A stretch of 64,000 bases of DNA from Kiloniellales bacterium. Its GTDB lineage: Bacteria; Pseudomonadota; Alphaproteobacteria; Kiloniellales; JAKSDN01. The position numbers were made by a program, and so were the translations under genes. The stretch spans positions 1 through 64,000 of the forward strand of contig JANQLT010000023.1 in assembly GCA_028280455.1 (NCBI GenBank), given 5' to 3'. Positions within the stretch are counted from its first letter, which is position 1; the number at the start of each line of letters is the position of its first letter. Shown piece by piece: positions 20,411 through 52,777 of this stretch. The notes under the pieces are model-generated. The model was not told where the DNA came from and searched no databases. It was given only the letters and a program-made list of their open reading frames with translations.

Positions 20411-21721
20411 TCACGGGCAATCGTAGATGCGGATCGGCGAGCCGTCGGTGAAGCGGGAGAGGCGGAAGGGCGTCAGGTCGACGCGGGTCCGGCCCTTGCT
20501 GACCAGCTCGGCCATCAGCAGGCCGGCGGCCGGGCCGATGCCGAAGCCGTGGCCGGAGAAGCCGCTCGCCAGGAAATAGCCCTGCGGCGCCTCGACCGCG
20601 CCCATGACCGGGATCTGGTCGGGCGTGGTCTCGATGACCCCGGCCCAGGTCTCGGCGACCTCGATGCCGGCCAATTGCGGGAACAGCCGCTTGGCCTCGG
20701 CCAAGGCGAGGTCGAGGGTCGCACGCTCCGGCTTCGGGTCGAGCACGCGGTCGGCCTCGAAGGCGGTCGGCTTGGTGCCGTCCCAGCGGCCGGGCCGCAG
20801 CAGCTCGCGGAAGAAGGCTGTCGAGAAGCGCAGGCGCTGATCGCGGCCGGCCCGGCGATGGGCCGGCAGGAAGGCCCGCAGGTAGCGGAAGGCGTCGGGC
20901 ACCAGCTCGAAGACGTGTGACCCACCGTGGGCGATGCTGTAGCCGCCGTCCTGCCGGCGGCGAAAGGCGACCGAGACCGCGTCGACCGCCGACTGGGTGA
21001 CGAGAGGTGCCGGTTTGGTGCGCAGCACCGAGGCCTTGACCCCGAGCTGCGGCAGATCGATGCCCAGGTTGCGGCTGAAGCGGCTGGTCCAGACGCCGGC
21101 GGCGCAGACCACGGCCCGGCAAGCCGTCATGCCGCGCTCGGTCACCACGCCGGCCACCCGGCCCGCTTCGGTCTCGACCGTGCGCACGGCGCAGCCGGTG
21201 AAGACCTTGGCGCCCAGGCGCTCGGCGGCCGCGGCCAGGGCCGGCGCGGCCTTGGCCGGCTCGGCGCGGCCGTCGCTCGGCGTGTAGAGCGCCGCCTTCC
21301 AGCGCCGATCGGACTGGCCGAGCAGCGCGTCGGTCTCGATCGCCGAGAGCAGCCGCGTGTCGAGCTGGTAGGCCCTGGCCTCTTCCAGCCAGGCCTCGAA
21401 CTTGCCGACCTCCCGGTCGTTGCGCGCCAGATAGGTGACGCCGCCCTGGTACCAGCCGAGGTCGGCGCCGAGGCGCGCCTCCAGGCTTTGCCAGAGCCGC
21501 AGGCTCTCGATGATCGCCGGCAGCTCCAGCGGATCGCGGCCCTGCTTGCGCACCCAGCCCCAGTTGCGCGAGGACTGCTCGCCGGCGATCCGGCCCTTCT
21601 CGAAGAGCACCACCGGCACGCCCGCCTCGGCCAGGAAGTAGGCCGTGGCGCAGCCGACGATGCCGCCGCCGATGACCACCACCTCCGTCCTCTGCGGCAG
21701 GGCCGCGGACTCTTCAGTCAT
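20411..21721 (-). CDS. FAD-dependent amino-acid oxidase/dehydrogenase-type oxidoreductase (DadA-like)
   Basis: The 436-residue flavoprotein has VVVIGGGIVGCATAYFLAEA for FAD binding and EQSSRNWGWVRKQGRDP, a signature of a DadA-like subgroup. The C-terminal FAD contact is GFSGHGFGIGPAAG. It probably oxidises a secondary or primary amine, amino acid or N-methyl compound. It is the third gene of a tight operon behind doeA and doeB, only 3 bp after doeB. A role on an ectoine-derived amino acid or related osmolyte is therefore plausible but inferred. The transaminase and dehydrogenase (DoeC, DoeD) of the known pathway are not in the window. Confidence 0.8.
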   Translation of the reverse strand: MTEESAALPQRTEVVVIGGGIVGCATAYFLAEAGVPVVLFEKGRIAGEQSSRNWGWVRKQGRDPLELPAIIESLRLWQSLEARLGADLGWYQGGVTYLARNDREVGKFEAWLEEARAYQLDTRLLSAIETDALLGQSDRRWKAALYTPSDGRAEPAKAAPALAAAAERLGAKVFTGCAVRTVETEAGRVAGVVTERGMTACRAVVCAAGVWTSRFSRNLGIDLPQLGVKASVLRTKPAPLVTQSAVDAVSVAFRRRQDGGYSIAHGGSHVFELVPDAFRYLRAFLPAHRRAGRDQRLRFSTAFFRELLRPGRWDGTKPTAFEADRVLDPKPERATLDLALAEAKRLFPQLAGIEVAETWAGVIETTPDQIPVMGAVEAPQGYFLASGFSGHGFGIGPAAGLLMAELVSKGRTRVDLTPFRLSRFTDGSPIRIYDCP

Positions 21722-21724
21722 GGC

Positions 21725-22717
21725 TCAGGCTTGGGGGACGGCGACGAGGGCGATGCAGTCGCCCATGGCCACCAGGCCCGGGAAGTGGCGGCCGGTCAGC
21801 AGGCCGTCGATGCCGGCGCGGTACTCGACGGGGGCCGCGCCGCTGCGCTCCGGGTCGTAGACCCGGGCGATGACCTGGCCGGCGGCAACGCGCTCGCCGA
21901 GGTCGGCGCAGAAGTCGATCAGGCCCCGCGACTCGCTGATCGCGAAGCAGCGCTCGTCCGGCATCTCGAGCCTCACGGTCGGTCCGATCTCCGGGGCGCC
22001 GGCGAGGACGCCGGCGTGCTTCAGGACATTGTCGACGCCGCGCCGGGCGATCGCCGCCGTCGCCGCGGTCGCGCTGCCGCCGCCGCCGAGCTCGGTGGAG
22101 ATGAAGACCTTGCCCATGGCCTCGGCTTCCCGGTCGTACATGCCCGCCATCTCGAGCTCGAGCAGCATCAGGCTATAGGGCGCGTTGAAGGCCTCCATGG
22201 CGTCGACGCAGCGCGCCTGCTGCGCCTTGTCCTCCAGGACGTGGGCGCAGGCAAAGGGCAAAAATGTGAGCGTCTTGCCGCCGGAGTGGATGTCGACGAC
22301 GACGTCGGCCATCGGCAGCAGCGTCCGCGTGAAATAGTCGGCGATCTTCTCGGTGATGGAGCCGTCGGGGCGGCCGGGGAAGACCCGGTTCATGTTGCCG
22401 CCGTCGATCGGCGAGGTCCGGCGGCCGGCCATGAAGGCCGGATGGTTCATGGCCGGCACGACGATCACCCGGCCCGTGACCTGCTCGGCCGTCAAGCGGT
22501 TCGCCAGATCGAACAGCGCGATCGGCCCTTCGTACTCGTCGCCGTGGTTGCCGCCGCTGAGCAGGACGGTCGGCCCGGCACCGCGCTTGATCTGGGTGAT
22601 CGGGATCATCAGCGCGCCCCAGGCCGAGGCGTCGTGCGAATAGGGCAGCTTGAGGTAGCCGTGCTGGACGCCGTCGGCCGTGAAATCGATGGTCGGGCTG
22701 ATCGGGTTGCCGGTCAC
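21725..22717 (-). CDS. doeB: N-alpha-acetyl-L-2,4-diaminobutyrate deacetylase
   Basis: DoeB removes the acetyl group from N-alpha-acetyl-2,4-diaminobutyrate, the second step of ectoine breakdown. The 330-residue protein is of the succinylglutamate desuccinylase/aspartoacylase zinc family: GGNHGDEYEGP supplies a zinc His and Glu, and VVDIHSGG another His. It starts with GTG at 22717, 5 bp after the doeA stop, so it is co-transcribed with and likely coupled to doeA. The immediate doeA neighbour makes this assignment much firmer than the family alone would. Confidence 0.87.
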   Translation of the reverse strand: MTGNPISPTIDFTADGVQHGYLKLPYSHDASAWGALMIPITQIKRGAGPTVLLSGGNHGDEYEGPIALFDLANRLTAEQVTGRVIVVPAMNHPAFMAGRRTSPIDGGNMNRVFPGRPDGSITEKIADYFTRTLLPMADVVVDIHSGGKTLTFLPFACAHVLEDKAQQARCVDAMEAFNAPYSLMLLELEMAGMYDREAEAMGKVFISTELGGGGSATAATAAIARRGVDNVLKHAGVLAGAPEIGPTVRLEMPDERCFAISESRGLIDFCADLGERVAAGQVIARVYDPERSGAAPVEYRAGIDGLLTGRHFPGLVAMGDCIALVAVPQA

Positions 22718-22722
22718 CTGTC

Positions 22723-23907
22723 TCAGTCCTTGACCATCAGCTTGCGCGGCGTGCTGCAGAAGGGCTCCGCCCCCGAGGCGGTGACCAGGAAGGGCTCGGT
22801 GATCTCCAGGCCCCAGCTCTCCTGCCAGATCGCCGGCATCAGGTGGAAGGTCATGTTCTCCTGCAGGACGCTCTTGTCCCCCGGCCGGAAGCTGATGGTC
22901 CGCTCGCCCCAGTCCGGTGGATAGCTCAGGCCGATCGGATAGCCGCAGCGCGACTCCTTCTCGATGCCGTGGCGCGCGATGACCTGGCGCCAGGCCGCCT
23001 CGACCTCCTCGGCGGTGGCGCCCGGCTTGGCCGCCTCCAGGGCCGCGGCGATGCCCTCGAGGGCCGCGGCCTCGGCGTCGAGGAAGTGCTGCGGCGGCTT
23101 GCCGAGGAAGACCGTGCGCGACTGCGGGCAGTGGTAGCGCCGGTGGCAGCCGGCGATCTCGAAGAAGGTGCCCTCGCCCGCCTTGAAGGGCTTGTCGTTC
23201 CAGGTCAGGTGCGCGGCCGAGGCGTCGGCGCCCGAGGGGGTCATCGGCACGATGGCGGGATAGTCGCCGCCATGGCCATCCACGCCGCGTATGCCGGTGT
23301 GGAAGATCTCGGCGACCAGCTCGTTCTTCGGCAGGCCCGGCTCGATCAGCTCGAAGATGCGGGCATGCATGGCCTCGACGATGCGCGCCGCCCGACGCAT
23401 GTACTCGATCTCCTGGGGCGACTTGACCGTGCGCTGCCAGTTGACCAAGCCGGTGGCATCCTCGAAACGCGCCGTGGCCAGGTTCTCGCGCAGAGAGCGA
23501 TAGCAGGCGGCCGAGAAGTAGTAGTTGTCCATCTCGACGCCGACCGGCCCGGCGTCCCAGCCGCGCGCCGCGATGATCTGCGACAGCAGGTCCATCGGAT
23601 GGTGATCCGGCGACATCACGTAGCCGTCGCCGTACTCCAGGACGTTGTCATGGCTCATGAAGACGGTGCGCCGGGCACCGGCCGCGTCCATGCCGCGGCC
23701 GAACCAGACCGGCTCGCCCTCGAGGCGCAGCAGGACGCACTGATGCACGTAGAAGGACCAGCCGTCGTAGCCGGTGAGCCAGGCCATGTTGGAGGGGTCC
23801 GTGACGATCAGCAGCTCGAGGCCGCGTTCGCCCATCGCCGCCCGCACCTTGCCGATGCGCGCGGCGTACTCCTCGCGCGTGAAATCGAGCTCGACCTCTT
23901 CGGCCAT
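22723..23907 (-). CDS. doeA: ectoine hydrolase
   Basis: DoeA opens the ectoine ring to give N-acetyl-diaminobutyrate isomers. The 394-residue protein belongs to the M24 (creatinase/prolidase-like) fold. FTREEYAARIGKVRAAMGER opens the N-terminal domain and LTGYDGWSFYVHQCVLL is typical of DoeA/EutD. The pita-bread domain follows with HGGDYPAIVPMTPSG, HLTWNDKPFKAGEGTFFEIA and RCGYPIGLSYPPDWGE. The usual metal ligands of M24 peptidases are partly replaced, as is normal in this group. It is the first gene of the doeA-doeB-FAD oxidoreductase operon. No EhuABCD/TeaABC transporter or DoeX/EnuR regulator is adjacent. Confidence 0.88.
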   Translation of the reverse strand: MAEEVELDFTREEYAARIGKVRAAMGERGLELLIVTDPSNMAWLTGYDGWSFYVHQCVLLRLEGEPVWFGRGMDAAGARRTVFMSHDNVLEYGDGYVMSPDHHPMDLLSQIIAARGWDAGPVGVEMDNYYFSAACYRSLRENLATARFEDATGLVNWQRTVKSPQEIEYMRRAARIVEAMHARIFELIEPGLPKNELVAEIFHTGIRGVDGHGGDYPAIVPMTPSGADASAAHLTWNDKPFKAGEGTFFEIAGCHRRYHCPQSRTVFLGKPPQHFLDAEAAALEGIAAALEAAKPGATAEEVEAAWRQVIARHGIEKESRCGYPIGLSYPPDWGERTISFRPGDKSVLQENMTFHLMPAIWQESWGLEITEPFLVTASGAEPFCSTPRKLMVKD

Positions 23908-23989
23908 CTTGCGCCCCCCTGCGATCCCTGGACCCCTCGCCCCGCCTCGGCTCTTGCCGGCCGAGCAGCGACGCCGTGGATCTTATCGC

Positions 23990-26338
23990 TCAGCCGCGCG
24001 GTGGCGCCAGCGTCTCGGGAGACCCGTCCCGGGCGGCCAGATGGTCGCGGACGATCAAGGCGACCACGGCCGGCAAGCTCGGCACCCGCTGCCCGCGCAC
24101 CTCGGCGCCCTCGCCGTCGGCGATCTGCTCCAGGTCGCGCAGCATGGTCTCGAGCTTGGTCCCGGAGCCCGAGCGGAGGACCTGCGACAGGGCCTTGGCG
24201 ATGCTCTCCAGGTCGGGCGTCGGCTGGTCGCACTTGCAGCGGATCACGATGTCGCAGGGGCGCCGCCCGCCGGCCTGGTCGATCTCGTCGAAGATGGTGA
24301 CATAGAGCTGCGCGTCGAGCGGCGGCCAGCTCTCGCGATAGGTGACGTCCGCCAGCCTCGGAACCGGTCCCCGGCGCGCCGCCGAGGACTGCGACTCGAA
24401 GCCGCCCCGGTCCGGCGCCCAGGACAGCCCTCCGCTGGCTTCGGCGTCGCCTTCCGATCCAATCGGGGTCTCGGCCCCGGCGGAGCGCAGGACGAAGCGC
24501 TGGCACCCGAGCTCGTGCGCCTTGCGGAAGAGCTGGTCGCGCGCGACATCGTCCAGCCGGTCAGCCGTGGTGCTGGGACAATCCAGGGGCGAGTCCAGGA
24601 AGGGCTGCACCGTCGCTTGCATGGCCGCCTGCCGGTCGGGCCCTATCCGGTCGGCCGCGACCCAGGCCGGCCCCAGTGTCTCAGGATCGACCGAGGCCGG
24701 GTCGAGGCCTTTGCGCCGACAGGTCGCGAGGAACCCGGCGTCGAAGCAGTCGATCTCGCGCGCCTGCGTCTCGCCGTCGCGCAGCCGGCGCCGATGGCGC
24801 TGGGCCGGCACCGGCGAGATCCCCGGCGAGGCGCAGCCGAGCAAGTCGGCGGTCGCCTGGCTCTCGGCGACGCAGAGCAAGGCGCCGTTTCTCAGGCCCC
24901 GGCTCTCGATCCCGCGCCGCAGGATGTCGGGCAGAGACGCCAGACTCTGCGCCCCACTGGCCTCGCCTGCCCCGAAGGCGGGATAGCTCTCGCGCTCCTC
25001 GGCCAGGGAGATCGAGGCGCGGTAGGCGGCGTCGCGCAACCTGTCCAACACCTTGCGCACCGTCACGCGGGCCGCCTGGCTGCCGTAGGGCTGGCCGAGC
25101 TGCTGCAGGAGCGTGCCCAGGCCGACGACTCCCAGGCCGATGCGCCGCTCGGCTTTCGCCGCGGCCTCCTGTTCCGGCACGCCGTAGGGCATGACGTCGA
25201 TGGCGTTGTCGAGAAAGCGGACGCCGAGGGTGACGGCCGCGCGCAGCTTCTGCGCATCGACCGTCGCAGAGCCCCTGCCCTGGGATTGCAGCAGGGCGGC
25301 GAGGTTGATCGAGCCGCCGACGGCGGGGCCCCAGGCCGGCCAGAGCGGCGCCTCCGTCTCGGCGGTCGGCGCCGTTGCCGGTCGCATGTAGCGCGACCTC
25401 TGGACGAAGAGCACGCCGCAATCGCCCCGAGCGTCGTCGTGGCGCAGGATCTCCCGCCACAGCGCCCGCGCGGAAACGACCTGGTGGACGAACCAGGGGC
25501 GCACGACGCCGTCCGCGCCTTGCCGATCGCGCACCAGCGACTGCGTGCCCGGGTCGAGCGGCGGCGCGACGTGGCCGAGATCCCATTCGGCATCCGCCTC
25601 GACGGCGGCCATGAAGGCGTCGCTCACCGCCACCATCAAGCCGAGCCGCTCGAGCCGGCCGGGCTCGCTCCGGGCGGCCGCGAAAGCCGGCAGGTCCGGG
25701 TGATCGCAAGACAGCAGCGCCCTGCTGCGCCCCTGCCAGGAGAGGCCCTCGGACAGCATGCGCCGTGCCATCGTCTCCCAGACGTCGAGCACGGGGAGCA
25801 CACCGGACGCGCCCGCGCCGCCCTGGCCCAGACGCGCGCCGGCCGGCGGCAGCGCCGTCAAGTCCAGCTCGAGCCTGCCGCCGAAGCGCAGGGCCGAGAC
25901 GGTCGTCTCCAGCGACTGCAGGAGACCCAGGGGCTGGTGCTCGATGGCAAGCCAGCGGCCGACGCTGGCGCCGCCCGCCCTGAGCGGCGGCGCGGCCGGA
26001 GAGGCGCCGCCGATCGTCGCCACGAGCCGCTCGTCAGGGCAGAAGATGGCGGCGCACATCAGGGCCAGGCACTGGTCCTGTTGCGACTCGCGCTGGGGAT
26101 CGGCGGCGAAGACCGCCTCCACCACCCGGCGAAAGCTGTCGGCCGGGGAGGCCTCGCCCGGCAGGCGAAAGCGGTCTTGCCAGACGGCTCGGCAGATTTC
26201 CTGGCTGTCGAAGACCGGCGACAGCGGGCTCACGGAGGCAGCCCTCGCCGCCCGGCCGCGTCGCCGACGGACAGATTCTGTCCTCCCTGGTCCCGGTCGC
26301 GACAGCGACCCGGAAGCCGTCCCTGCATAGGAAGGCAT
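23990..26338 (-). CDS. NrdJ-like (class II ribonucleotide reductase) protein with lost active site and C-terminal TSCPD domain
   Basis: The 782-residue protein follows adenosylcobalamin-dependent ribonucleotide reductase from end to end. SQEICRAVWQDRFRL is near 45, GGAGASGVLPVLDVWETM near 173-190 and CDHPDLPAF near 211. VSDAFMAAVEADAEWDL, ALWREILRH, GGSINLAALL (near 341) and RRIGLGVVGLGTLLQQLG (near 398) follow. Next is NGALLCVAESQATADLLG, where a real enzyme has its phosphate-binding P-T-G-T-I loop, and then a TSCPD-like domain (DAQLYVTIFDEIDQAG) near 675-770. The thiyl-radical segment, normally N-P-C-G-E, aligns with TAETE near 325, so the catalytic Cys and Asn are gone. It should not reduce ribonucleotides. 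It is divergent from an XRE regulator. Regulatory, B12-binding or nucleotide-sensing roles are open guesses. Confidence 0.75.
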   Translation of the reverse strand: MPSYAGTASGSLSRPGPGRTESVRRRRGRAARAASVSPLSPVFDSQEICRAVWQDRFRLPGEASPADSFRRVVEAVFAADPQRESQQDQCLALMCAAIFCPDERLVATIGGASPAAPPLRAGGASVGRWLAIEHQPLGLLQSLETTVSALRFGGRLELDLTALPPAGARLGQGGAGASGVLPVLDVWETMARRMLSEGLSWQGRSRALLSCDHPDLPAFAAARSEPGRLERLGLMVAVSDAFMAAVEADAEWDLGHVAPPLDPGTQSLVRDRQGADGVVRPWFVHQVVSARALWREILRHDDARGDCGVLFVQRSRYMRPATAPTAETEAPLWPAWGPAVGGSINLAALLQSQGRGSATVDAQKLRAAVTLGVRFLDNAIDVMPYGVPEQEAAAKAERRIGLGVVGLGTLLQQLGQPYGSQAARVTVRKVLDRLRDAAYRASISLAEERESYPAFGAGEASGAQSLASLPDILRRGIESRGLRNGALLCVAESQATADLLGCASPGISPVPAQRHRRRLRDGETQAREIDCFDAGFLATCRRKGLDPASVDPETLGPAWVAADRIGPDRQAAMQATVQPFLDSPLDCPSTTADRLDDVARDQLFRKAHELGCQRFVLRSAGAETPIGSEGDAEASGGLSWAPDRGGFESQSSAARRGPVPRLADVTYRESWPPLDAQLYVTIFDEIDQAGGRRPCDIVIRCKCDQPTPDLESIAKALSQVLRSGSGTKLETMLRDLEQIADGEGAEVRGQRVPSLPAVVALIVRDHLAARDGSPETLAPPRG

Positions 26339-26348
26339 GTTACGAATT

Positions 26349-26363
26349 ACGCAATTCTTGCGT
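26349..26363. promoter_or_regulatory. candidate operator between NrdJ-like gene and XRE gene
   Basis: ACGCAATTCTTGCGT is a dyad with perfect 6-bp arms (ACGCAA/TTGCGT) in an unusually AT-rich 81-bp divergent region. It sits 11 bp upstream of the NrdJ-like ATG and 57 bp upstream of the XRE ATG, a good place for the XRE protein to control both. Confidence 0.45.
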
Positions 26364-26419
26364 CAATTGCCGCGAAAAACGCAGCAGACATTGTTCGGCG
26401 AGCGTGCGAAATTTGTAAC

Positions 26420-26986
26420 ATGGCCGATGCTCGCCTGGACCTTTCCTGGATCGTCCCGCGGCTTCGAGAGCTGGGCATGACTCAGTCCGAGCTGGCGGCT
26501 TCACTCGGTCTCGACCGCAGTCGGGTGAGCGAGATGCTGAACCCGAGTCGCGACAACAAGCCGCGCCGACTGCAGCTCAGCGAATTGCCGGCCATATCGC
26601 GCGCCCTGCGCATGCCCATCGACGAGATCGTCGCCCGAGCGACCGGCGACCGCGGCTACCGGGCGGACAGCGGCAAGGATCTGGAGCAGGCCGCGGACCT
26701 GACCGACCCTTCGGCGCAGCGCACCTATCACGCGACGCATGATGTCCTGAGCGTCATGACCAAGCACGAGCTGCTCGACATGACCAGCGAGGAGATCCAC
26801 GTCTACGCCATGGCCATCGCCCAGGCGGCGACCAAGCCGGGCCTGCACGACAGGACGCAGCTTGACGCCCATCTGCAGGACACGGTGATCCATCTCTGGG
26901 ATTTCAAGGCGATCCGGGGCGCCGCACCGCGGTCGCGGCCGAAGCCGAACGTCGGCGCCGCCAAGGCCGACTATAGGAAGCCGTAG
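26420..26986 (+). CDS. XRE-family helix-turn-helix regulator
   Basis: The 188-residue protein starts at ATG 26420 (MADARLDLSWIVPRLRELGM). Residues 13-55 form a lambda-repressor-type helix-turn-helix (MTQSELAASLGLDRSRVSEM) followed by a basic linker with NPSRDNKPRRLQLSE. The C-terminal half is helical with no recognised ligand or protease domain (no S24 Ser/Lys). The reading frame is open far upstream, but the base composition changes sharply at the AT-rich intergenic region, so only this part is a gene. It is divergent from the NrdJ-like gene and probably regulates it. Confidence 0.8.
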   Translation: MADARLDLSWIVPRLRELGMTQSELAASLGLDRSRVSEMLNPSRDNKPRRLQLSELPAISRALRMPIDEIVARATGDRGYRADSGKDLEQAADLTDPSAQRTYHATHDVLSVMTKHELLDMTSEEIHVYAMAIAQAATKPGLHDRTQLDAHLQDTVIHLWDFKAIRGAAPRSRPKPNVGAAKADYRKP

Positions 26987-27090
26987 CCTGGCGCCGAGAT
27001 CCGCTCAGCCAATGGTGTCCACCCCCTCTTGCCACGAAGCGGCAAGGCTGCTTTGCTACCAAGGGTGATGAATAGGGTGGTTTTCTAATC

Positions 27091-27411
27091 ATGGGAAAAG
27101 GCCAGACCGACCCGGGGGCAGCGCTCCGCGCCCTTGGGCAAGCAATAACCACGGCCAGACAAAGACAAGGCGTTACGAGGGAAGATCTATCGAGGGCATC
27201 CGGGTTGGACGTGCAACTTCTCGATGCATTGGAGTCCGGTCGGGAACAGCCGGCCCTCAGTCACCTCTTCAAGATATGCCTCGCCTTGGAAGAGCATCCG
27301 GAGTCGCTTTTCGATACGGCCCGCGAGCATCACGCCGTGGCCCGCCTGGTGACGCACGCCGACCTGCTCTTCGGCCTCTACAAGACGATCCGGCGCGACA
27401 AGGCTTCCTGA
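27091..27411 (+). CDS. small XRE-family helix-turn-helix protein
   Basis: This 106-residue protein has an N-terminal helix-turn-helix (LGQAITTARQRQGVTREDLS, then ASGLDVQLLDALESGREQP) in residues 15-60 and a short helical tail. It begins at ATG 27091 after an AT-rich leader. A GC-rich stem (8-bp arms GCGCGCGG/CCGCGCGC) follows the stop but lacks a T tract, so it is a poor terminator. No partner gene is adjacent. It may be an orphan antitoxin or a small regulator; nothing in the sequence decides. Confidence 0.7.
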   Translation: MGKGQTDPGAALRALGQAITTARQRQGVTREDLSRASGLDVQLLDALESGREQPALSHLFKICLALEEHPESLFDTAREHHAVARLVTHADLLFGLYKTIRRDKAS

Positions 27412-52057: not shown

Positions 52058-52777
52058 ATGCTCAACCTGCCTTCCGAGCGACTACGCTGGGCCCGGGAAC
52101 AGGCCGGCTATCGCTCCGCCGCTGCCTTCGCGCGCGCCGCCGACGTGCCGGAAGTGACCTATCGGGCGCACGAGAAAGGCCCGCGGGCGGTCGGCGGCCG
52201 GGGCCTCTCCGAGCAGGCCGCCCGGCTCTACGCCGAGCATCTCGGCGTGTCCTGGGCCTGGCTGCTGACCGGCATCGGCGAGCCTTTCGCCAAGGCCGGC
52301 GACGCCGGCGGCGGCCAAGGCGCGGCCGCGGGCGGCGGCCAGCGCTTCGACCTGCCGGCCGGTGCGAGCCTGCAGCGCGACGTGCCGCTCAGGGGCGTCG
52401 CCGTCGGCGGCGACGACGGCTGCTTCGAGTTCAACGGCGAGGTGGTCGACTACGTGCTGCGGCCGCCGGGCATCGCCCAGGCGCGCAACGTCTTCGCCAT
52501 CTACGTGGTCGGCACCTCGATGGTGCCGCGCTACGAGGAGGGCGACCTGGTCTTCGTCCACCCGGGCCGCCCGGCCCACGCCGGCTGCGACGTGCTGGTC
52601 GAGCTGCTCGACGAGAACGGCCAGGCCGGCCCCTGCTACATCAAGCGTCTGCTGGGGCGCGGCCCGAGCAAGCTGCGCCTGCTGCAGTTCAACCCCCGGG
52701 GCGAGATCGAGATCCCGCTCTCGCAGGTGCGCCTCGTCTACCGCATACTGACGGCGGCCGAGCTGCTCGGGGTCTAG
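52058..52777 (+). CDS. phage repressor, XRE helix-turn-helix plus S24 (LexA-like) peptidase
   Basis: The 239-residue protein starts at ATG 52058. Residues 6-70 form the helix-turn-helix (RLRWAREQAGYRSAAAFARA) with a VTYRAHEKGPRAVGG linker. The S24 domain has the catalytic Ser in VVGTSMVPRYEEGDLVFV (near 154) and the Lys in GPCYIKRLLGRG (near 196). Such repressors hold the late genes off and are inactivated by RecA-stimulated self-cleavage. A clear Ala-Gly cleavage site is not obvious, though AAAGGGQ near 90 is a candidate. It is the only S24 protein in the window and is divergent from the phage operon. Confidence 0.88.
   Translation: MLNLPSERLRWAREQAGYRSAAAFARAADVPEVTYRAHEKGPRAVGGRGLSEQAARLYAEHLGVSWAWLLTGIGEPFAKAGDAGGGQGAAAGGGQRFDLPAGASLQRDVPLRGVAVGGDDGCFEFNGEVVDYVLRPPGIAQARNVFAIYVVGTSMVPRYEEGDLVFVHPGRPAHAGCDVLVELLDENGQAGPCYIKRLLGRGPSKLRLLQFNPRGEIEIPLSQVRLVYRILTAAELLGV

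Follow-up and report, generated by a model that had tools for sequence, protein, structure and literature searches.

P0002, a putatively retained, non-catalytic NrdJ-like protein of likely phage-type ancestry beside a divergent XRE regulator gene

Gene P0002, situated in the window (the whole stretch of 64,000 nucleotides of DNA analysed here), encodes a homologue of NrdJ, the class II ribonucleotide reductase (RNR), from which, as read from its sequence, the complete catalytic apparatus of the family is lost: the radical cysteine, the redox cysteines, the phosphate loop, substrate loop 2 and the cysteine tail. On balance we read P0002 as a retained, non-catalytic NrdJ pseudoenzyme of phage-type ancestry that is linked to an XRE-type regulator (Table 1). 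Betaherpesviruses already provide cases of dead RNR large subunits that have taken on new tasks. What looks new, on the basis of one draft genome, is a bacterial class II pseudoenzyme with phage-type ancestry and a regulator of its own, and no description of a bacterial class II RNR pseudoenzyme was found in the literature searched, coverage of which was incomplete. If P0002 is made and selected, the RNR scaffold can persist without catalysis in bacteria, and the gene would provide a simple case of a phage enzyme turned to another use.

Table 1. Positions of P0002, its diagnostic segments and the adjoining regulatory features in the window
Feature	Position	Strand	Remark
P0002, catalytically dead NrdJ-like protein	23990..26338	-	ATG start, 782 codons
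TSCPD domain, residues 676-767	24038..24313	-	weak match, no Cys-rich zinc tail behind
Degenerate phosphate loop, residues 491-498	24845..24868	-	A-ESQATAD for A-PTGTIS
Degenerate finger loop, residues 316-341	25316..25393	-	radical Cys and second redox Cys missing, 6 residues deleted
Insertion of ~22 residues, around residues 258-280	25499..25567	-	common to phage NrdJ clade, absent from cellular NrdJ
CDHP motif, residues 211-214	25697..25708	-	conserved, retained
Inverted repeat, left arm, 18 nt	26336..26353	.	over annotated P0002 start
Promoter-like TTGACG-18-TAACAT	26337..26366	-	1 found vs 0.0 expected in shuffles
Operator-like palindrome TTACGCAAttcTTGCGTca	26347..26365	.	within promoter spacer; ACGCAAttcTTGCGT at 26349-26363
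Inverted repeat, right arm, 18 nt	26405..26422	.	over XRE start
XRE/Cro-CI type regulator P0003, 188 aa	26420..26986	+	divergent from P0002
Second small HTH protein, 106 aa	27091..27411	+	after XRE gene

Homology, fold and catalytic residues

The initial annotation described a full-length relative of NrdJ with a TSCPD domain, and Pfam profiles, a search of the PDB and structure prediction agree with that description, while the curated NrdJ cutoffs are missed. Thus, P0002 scores 158.8 bits against the RNR barrel family PF02867 (cutoff 23.9) and 23.5 bits, barely above the cutoff of 22.8, against the TSCPD family PF12637, with 199 bits against TIGR02504 (NrdJ; curated cutoff 399.95) and 248.8 bits, far below the cutoff of 906, against NF005401/PRK06948, a "ribonucleotide reductase-like protein" with the same domain order. 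Sequence search of the PDB returns RNR structures of both class II and class I, with T. maritima NrdJ (1xjk/1xje) on top. An AlphaFold model computed from a 20-sequence alignment has a mean pLDDT of 72.8, with a confident barrel and values below 50 over residues 317-337, and Foldseek ranks human RNR1 and T. maritima NrdJ first among its PDB matches (E about 1e-28); since the alignment was built from catalytic relatives, the model indicates that the sequence fits the fold and does not prove it. Going by its sequence, P0002 is certainly a true RNR/NrdJ homologue. Identity to the family consensus amounts to 44% in the barrel core (residues 341-460) and to 46% in residues 137-256, a stretch that is also the best conserved across the family and that we take to be the region of the subunit-contact helices in NrdJ structures.

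Comparison of P0002 with 61 aligned relatives over 225 near-invariant columns reveals that 102 are kept and 123 are not, and that 56% of the columns conserved at 97% or more have changed. Within the functional segments 47 of the 59 near-invariant positions are lost, against 76 of 166 elsewhere (p = 7e-6, which is a guide only, as the segments were taken from RNR function but with the list of lost residues in view). As can be seen from the individual motifs, the finger loop carries T325-A-E-T-E329 in place of NPC(G)E, bearing out the TAETE replacement put forward in the initial annotation, with E329 as the kept Glu of NPCGE provided that a one-residue insertion (W333) is allowed. The NC of the first redox-cysteine strand has become GG122-123 (Cys to G123), and the GAC of the second redox cysteine GPA337-339 (Cys to A339). 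The phosphate loop, PTGTIS in the family, reads E492-S-Q-A-T-A-D498, also as proposed before, substrate loop 2 has gone from RRGAMM to WQGRSR and the apical phosphate loop from PAGR to PDER, and in the specificity-site helix H134 stands where the family has an invariant Asp. No C-terminal Cys array or Cys-rich re-reduction tail is present after residue 703. The Cys-Asp-His-Pro motif that had been noted near residue 211 is indeed retained, as C211-D-H-P214.

The same genome holds two further, intact NrdJ genes (C59 and C72). The C59 protein (C59:6087-8453) resembles P0002 in the order of barrel and TSCPD domain at about 30% identity, and possesses the NPCAEQ and PTGTIS motifs and the Cys-rich tail that P0002 is without.

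Likely phage-type ancestry and distribution

Among the relatives gathered, the highest full-length score to P0002 is that of a viral locus, L153 (303 bits, 31% identity), cellular NrdJ proteins reaching at most 279 bits, and when P0002 is split in two the best match is viral for each half (L153 and L172). The spacing around the insertion listed in Table 1 points the same way: the distance from W252 to L293 is 41 residues in P0002, 33-45 in the phage clade (23 of 23 members) and, with few exceptions, 17 in cellular NrdJ, and the insertion residues of P0002 match those of L153 (VRDRQGADGVVRPWFVHQ beside VERDDRGRIEPWFAYS). Of the 30 positions that are diagnostic, 11 are phage-like in P0002 and six are cellular-like. 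In a phylogenetic tree P0002 joins between the phage and cellular clades on a single branch of 7.7 changes per column, a length that keeps the tree from settling its exact place. Full-length homology, insertion and diagnostic residues are hence features that P0002 has in common with the phage NrdJ clade (IMG/VR loci L153, L148, L149, L104 and L172), and from these sequence features a phage-type ancestry, which the initial annotation did not mention, is likely. The look of a captured phage enzyme stems from the fact that the nearest relatives are working phage NrdJs, and capture from a phage is plausible. The differences lie in the radical cysteine, which all members of the phage clade have, and in the phosphate loop, which nearly all of them have, P0002 having neither, and in the surroundings: in at least two contigs the phage NrdJ gene has DNA polymerase I as its neighbour, whereas P0002 is next to an XRE gene. 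In the course of events that we propose, a bacterium that already had two working NrdJ genes would have acquired an NrdJ from the lineage that phages carry today; the newcomer would then have lost its catalytic apparatus, while its fold was retained for a task other than catalysis.

Two phage NrdJs from viral contigs (L172 and L106) contain an intein whose insertion point is precisely the radical cysteine, NPC|GE, and another, L155, has a variant phosphate loop, IAPVGTGS instead of IAPTGT, in an otherwise catalytic-looking protein.

The radical cysteine is kept in all 180 distinct relatives, as N[PS]C[GSA]E in 177, interrupted by an intein at NPC|GE in two and as NLCGE in one; the latter three had at first been flagged as being without the finger motif. 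No second dead NrdJ was found in samples of 63 genomes of the order, 385 and 372 genomes of the class and 399 genomes of the phylum, nor in 80 viral loci. In each of these distribution searches the residues were inspected in the best loci only, and a dead copy that is highly divergent may therefore have escaped notice elsewhere. When profiles A2 and A3 were run against the order and class genomes, every locus that was read proved to be an ordinary NrdJ, and the search of plasmids and phages for orthologues of P0002 yielded no dead form. A search of GTDB contigs with P0002, which detects close relatives only, gave one relative, a catalytic Roseobacter NrdJ; the corresponding search of viral contigs alone gave no match, and alignment gave 80 loci there, all catalytic. 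One candidate, G443 (L108), was suspected of being a dead relative owing to its high score and was found to be catalytic.

Retained function or decay

That catalysis was lost while length and reading frame were retained had been taken as a sign of selection in the initial annotation, and this argument is backed by simulation, by third-position GC content (GC3) and by the nature of the replacements. The long open frame that it relied on runs along the minus strand, which is newly assigned here, and its 782 codons include no stop. Neutral drift, taken as the source of the changes at the invariant columns, was simulated in 60 runs that started from the intact C59 gene at the intergenic GC of 0.666. 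None of the 60 runs was stop-free, the mean being 10.8 stops and the minimum 4, and the GC3 expected after the simulated drift is 0.81 vs 0.91 in P0002 from codon 36 onward. With the equilibrium GC set to 0.80 instead, a single run out of 60 remained stop-free, on account of which the argument against decay is strong and not absolute; indels, if included, would strengthen it. Where columns of P0002 have changed, the replacements are more conservative than shuffling would give (z = 6.2), and some of this conservative divergence may be older than the loss of catalysis. Taken together, these data favor selection on P0002 for some role.

Among the rival explanations, plain decay survives best. It holds that a redundant, acquired NrdJ copy is drifting, and that its frame is open since stops are rare in GC-rich DNA or since the loss is recent, in which case P0002 is just one more dead gene whose frame has stayed open by luck. 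The two intact NrdJ genes in the genome make P0002 dispensable, no orthologue of it occurs in the sampled genomes of the family, order, class and phylum, and high-GC frames do stay open readily, as illustrated by the frame antisense to P0002, which is open for about 880 codons too. Yet more than half of the columns that are invariant in live enzymes have changed in P0002 and not one stop or frameshift has appeared, whereas every neutral run at the local GC acquired at least four stops; moreover, GC3 stands at 0.91 despite an intergenic GC of 0.67, and the replacements are of a conservative kind. We consider decay unlikely on this evidence, though far from negligible. Close relatives of P0002, in which in-frame stops would be looked for, were not found in the sampled genomes.

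On the plus strand, an open frame of 1070 codons (23774-26986) runs antisense to P0002 and on into the XRE gene. Considered as a gene in its own right it was rejected, being the XRE frame extended upstream with a base composition that fits the antisense frame of a GC-rich gene.

Divergent regulator, possible role and surroundings

P0003 is recognized as an XRE-type regulator by HTH_26 (29.4 bits) and HTH_3 (26.6 bits), both above cutoff. A divergent XRE regulator with a palindrome in between had been part of the initial annotation, and the intergenic region contains an inverted repeat with 18-nt arms that are 89% complementary and cover both annotated ATGs; a scan of the 5.9-Mb genome allowing up to two mismatches gives no further occurrence of its motif. 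Positions 26347-26363 form a perfect TTACGCAANNNTTGCGT site (expected number 0.05 at 2 mismatches). The promoter-like TTGACG-18-TAACAT, the only such site in the region, is directed toward P0002 and spans the operator-like palindrome. Its -10 box and the annotated P0002 ATG overlap, and codons 1-35 have a GC3 of 0.63, against 0.91 for the remainder, so that the coding signature is absent at the 5' end; on these two grounds the GTG at 26233 (residue 36), giving a product of 747 aa, is more likely to be the true start. The XRE protein probably represses P0002 and regulates itself, and it would do so by binding the operator palindromes that overlap the P0002 promoter. A divergent regulator with intergenic palindromes is the arrangement known from XRE divergent pairs with operators between the genes, the difference being that the partner gene here encodes an RNR pseudoenzyme, and no such pair was found elsewhere.

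Comparison of the XRE protein with phages and plasmids gave no match. Its closest paralogue in the genome belongs to another pair of HTH genes (L082:8553-9348, contig C97 of G000), which has no NrdJ beside it; the first members of this pair and of the pair at 26420-27411 are 31% identical, and the second members have similar ends (..DKAS).

As for the task itself, the retained pseudoenzyme would most likely act by protein contact, binding being the most economical role for the parts that remain, namely the barrel, the subunit-contact region and the TSCPD domain. As candidate partner we put a catalytic NrdJ first, be it a resident one or one that a phage brings in; together with it P0002 would form mixed, less active oligomers. 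This choice follows from the finding that active-site and tail mutants of an NrdJ exchange electrons within mixed oligomers (PMC5704485), meaning that mutant subunits cooperate and that a dead subunit can join the complex; a live NrdJ as the actual partner is nevertheless a conjecture, and one that we hold to be quite doubtful. A new binding role for a dead RNR has a precedent in another lineage, that of the enzymatically inactive betaherpesvirus RNR large subunits, which act by binding other (signalling) proteins (PMC11772975). These proteins (M45, UL45 and U28) are, like P0002, inactive, full-length RNR large-subunit homologues, but they are of the class I lineage of eukaryotic viruses with protein-binding roles, whereas P0002 is a bacterial class II protein, which makes the likeness one of analogy and not of descent. 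In a bolder version, P0002 would be a domesticated phage enzyme, an XRE-controlled dead decoy or dominant-negative subunit that poisons the NrdJ oligomers of incoming phages or tunes those of the host; this we regard as a long shot, which if true would supply a bacterial counterpart of the inactive betaherpesvirus subunits.

The initial annotation had suggested sensing of nucleotides or cobalamin, and a ligand sensor, with a barrel that still binds either and signals to the XRE regulator, would make sense of the remaining barrel core and CDHP motif and of the adjoining regulator gene. The pockets for such ligands are, however, precisely the part that is lost: the phosphate loop (PTGT), the apical phosphate loop (PAGR), substrate loop 2 (RRGAMM) and the finger loop (NPCGE) account for phosphate-holding and substrate-pocket residues among the 47 of 59 positions counted above, the Asp of the specificity-site helix has given way to H134, and CDHP is found family-wide and is no mark of a sensor. 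Sensing thus becomes very improbable, and the suggestion does not hold up well.

Still less credible is that P0002 has remained an enzyme, with a displaced cysteine or other residue bearing the radical or with catalysis of a different reaction. The cysteines of P0002 are at positions 49, 90, 95, 100, 211, 307, 489, 502, 531, 540, 587, 612, 695, 701 and 703. Cys307 and Cys489 are on strands adjoining the former active site and E329 may match the catalytic Glu, but these two cysteines are the nearest ones. The stretch from residue 308 to 488 has none, so the finger loop and its vicinity offer no displaced radical site, the very case that the initial annotation had named as speaking against its reading. 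The finger loop is also six residues shorter and poorly modelled, and the redox pair and the tail cysteines are lost as well.

P0002 is known from one genome, a draft assembly with an estimated contamination of 4.93%, so misassembly or a contaminant was considered and is judged highly improbable, as the gene is internal to a 71-kb contig, its neighbours match it in GC and codon use, and the adjoining ectoine-degradation-like genes share about 70% identity with their counterparts in the same family. These adjoining genes (20411-23907, minus strand) encode an M24 peptidase, an AstE/AspA deacylase and a DAO oxidoreductase, lie directly downstream of P0002 on the same strand after a gap of 82 bp, and form a row resembling an ectoine-degradation operon (doeAB-like). 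Relatives of the order have an M24 peptidase of about 70% identity to this one, in different surroundings; the genes upstream of it there are unrelated to P0002, hence the position of P0002 is not conserved. On the other side, about 3.4 kb from P0002 and separated from it by an ABC solute-binding gene, starts a prophage-like block (29711-51341, minus strand) with PHROGs matches to a cell wall hydrolase, a J-like tail fibre protein, a major head protein, a portal protein and the terminase large subunit, and a CI-like repressor gene (52058-52777, plus strand) lies beyond the terminase end of this block.
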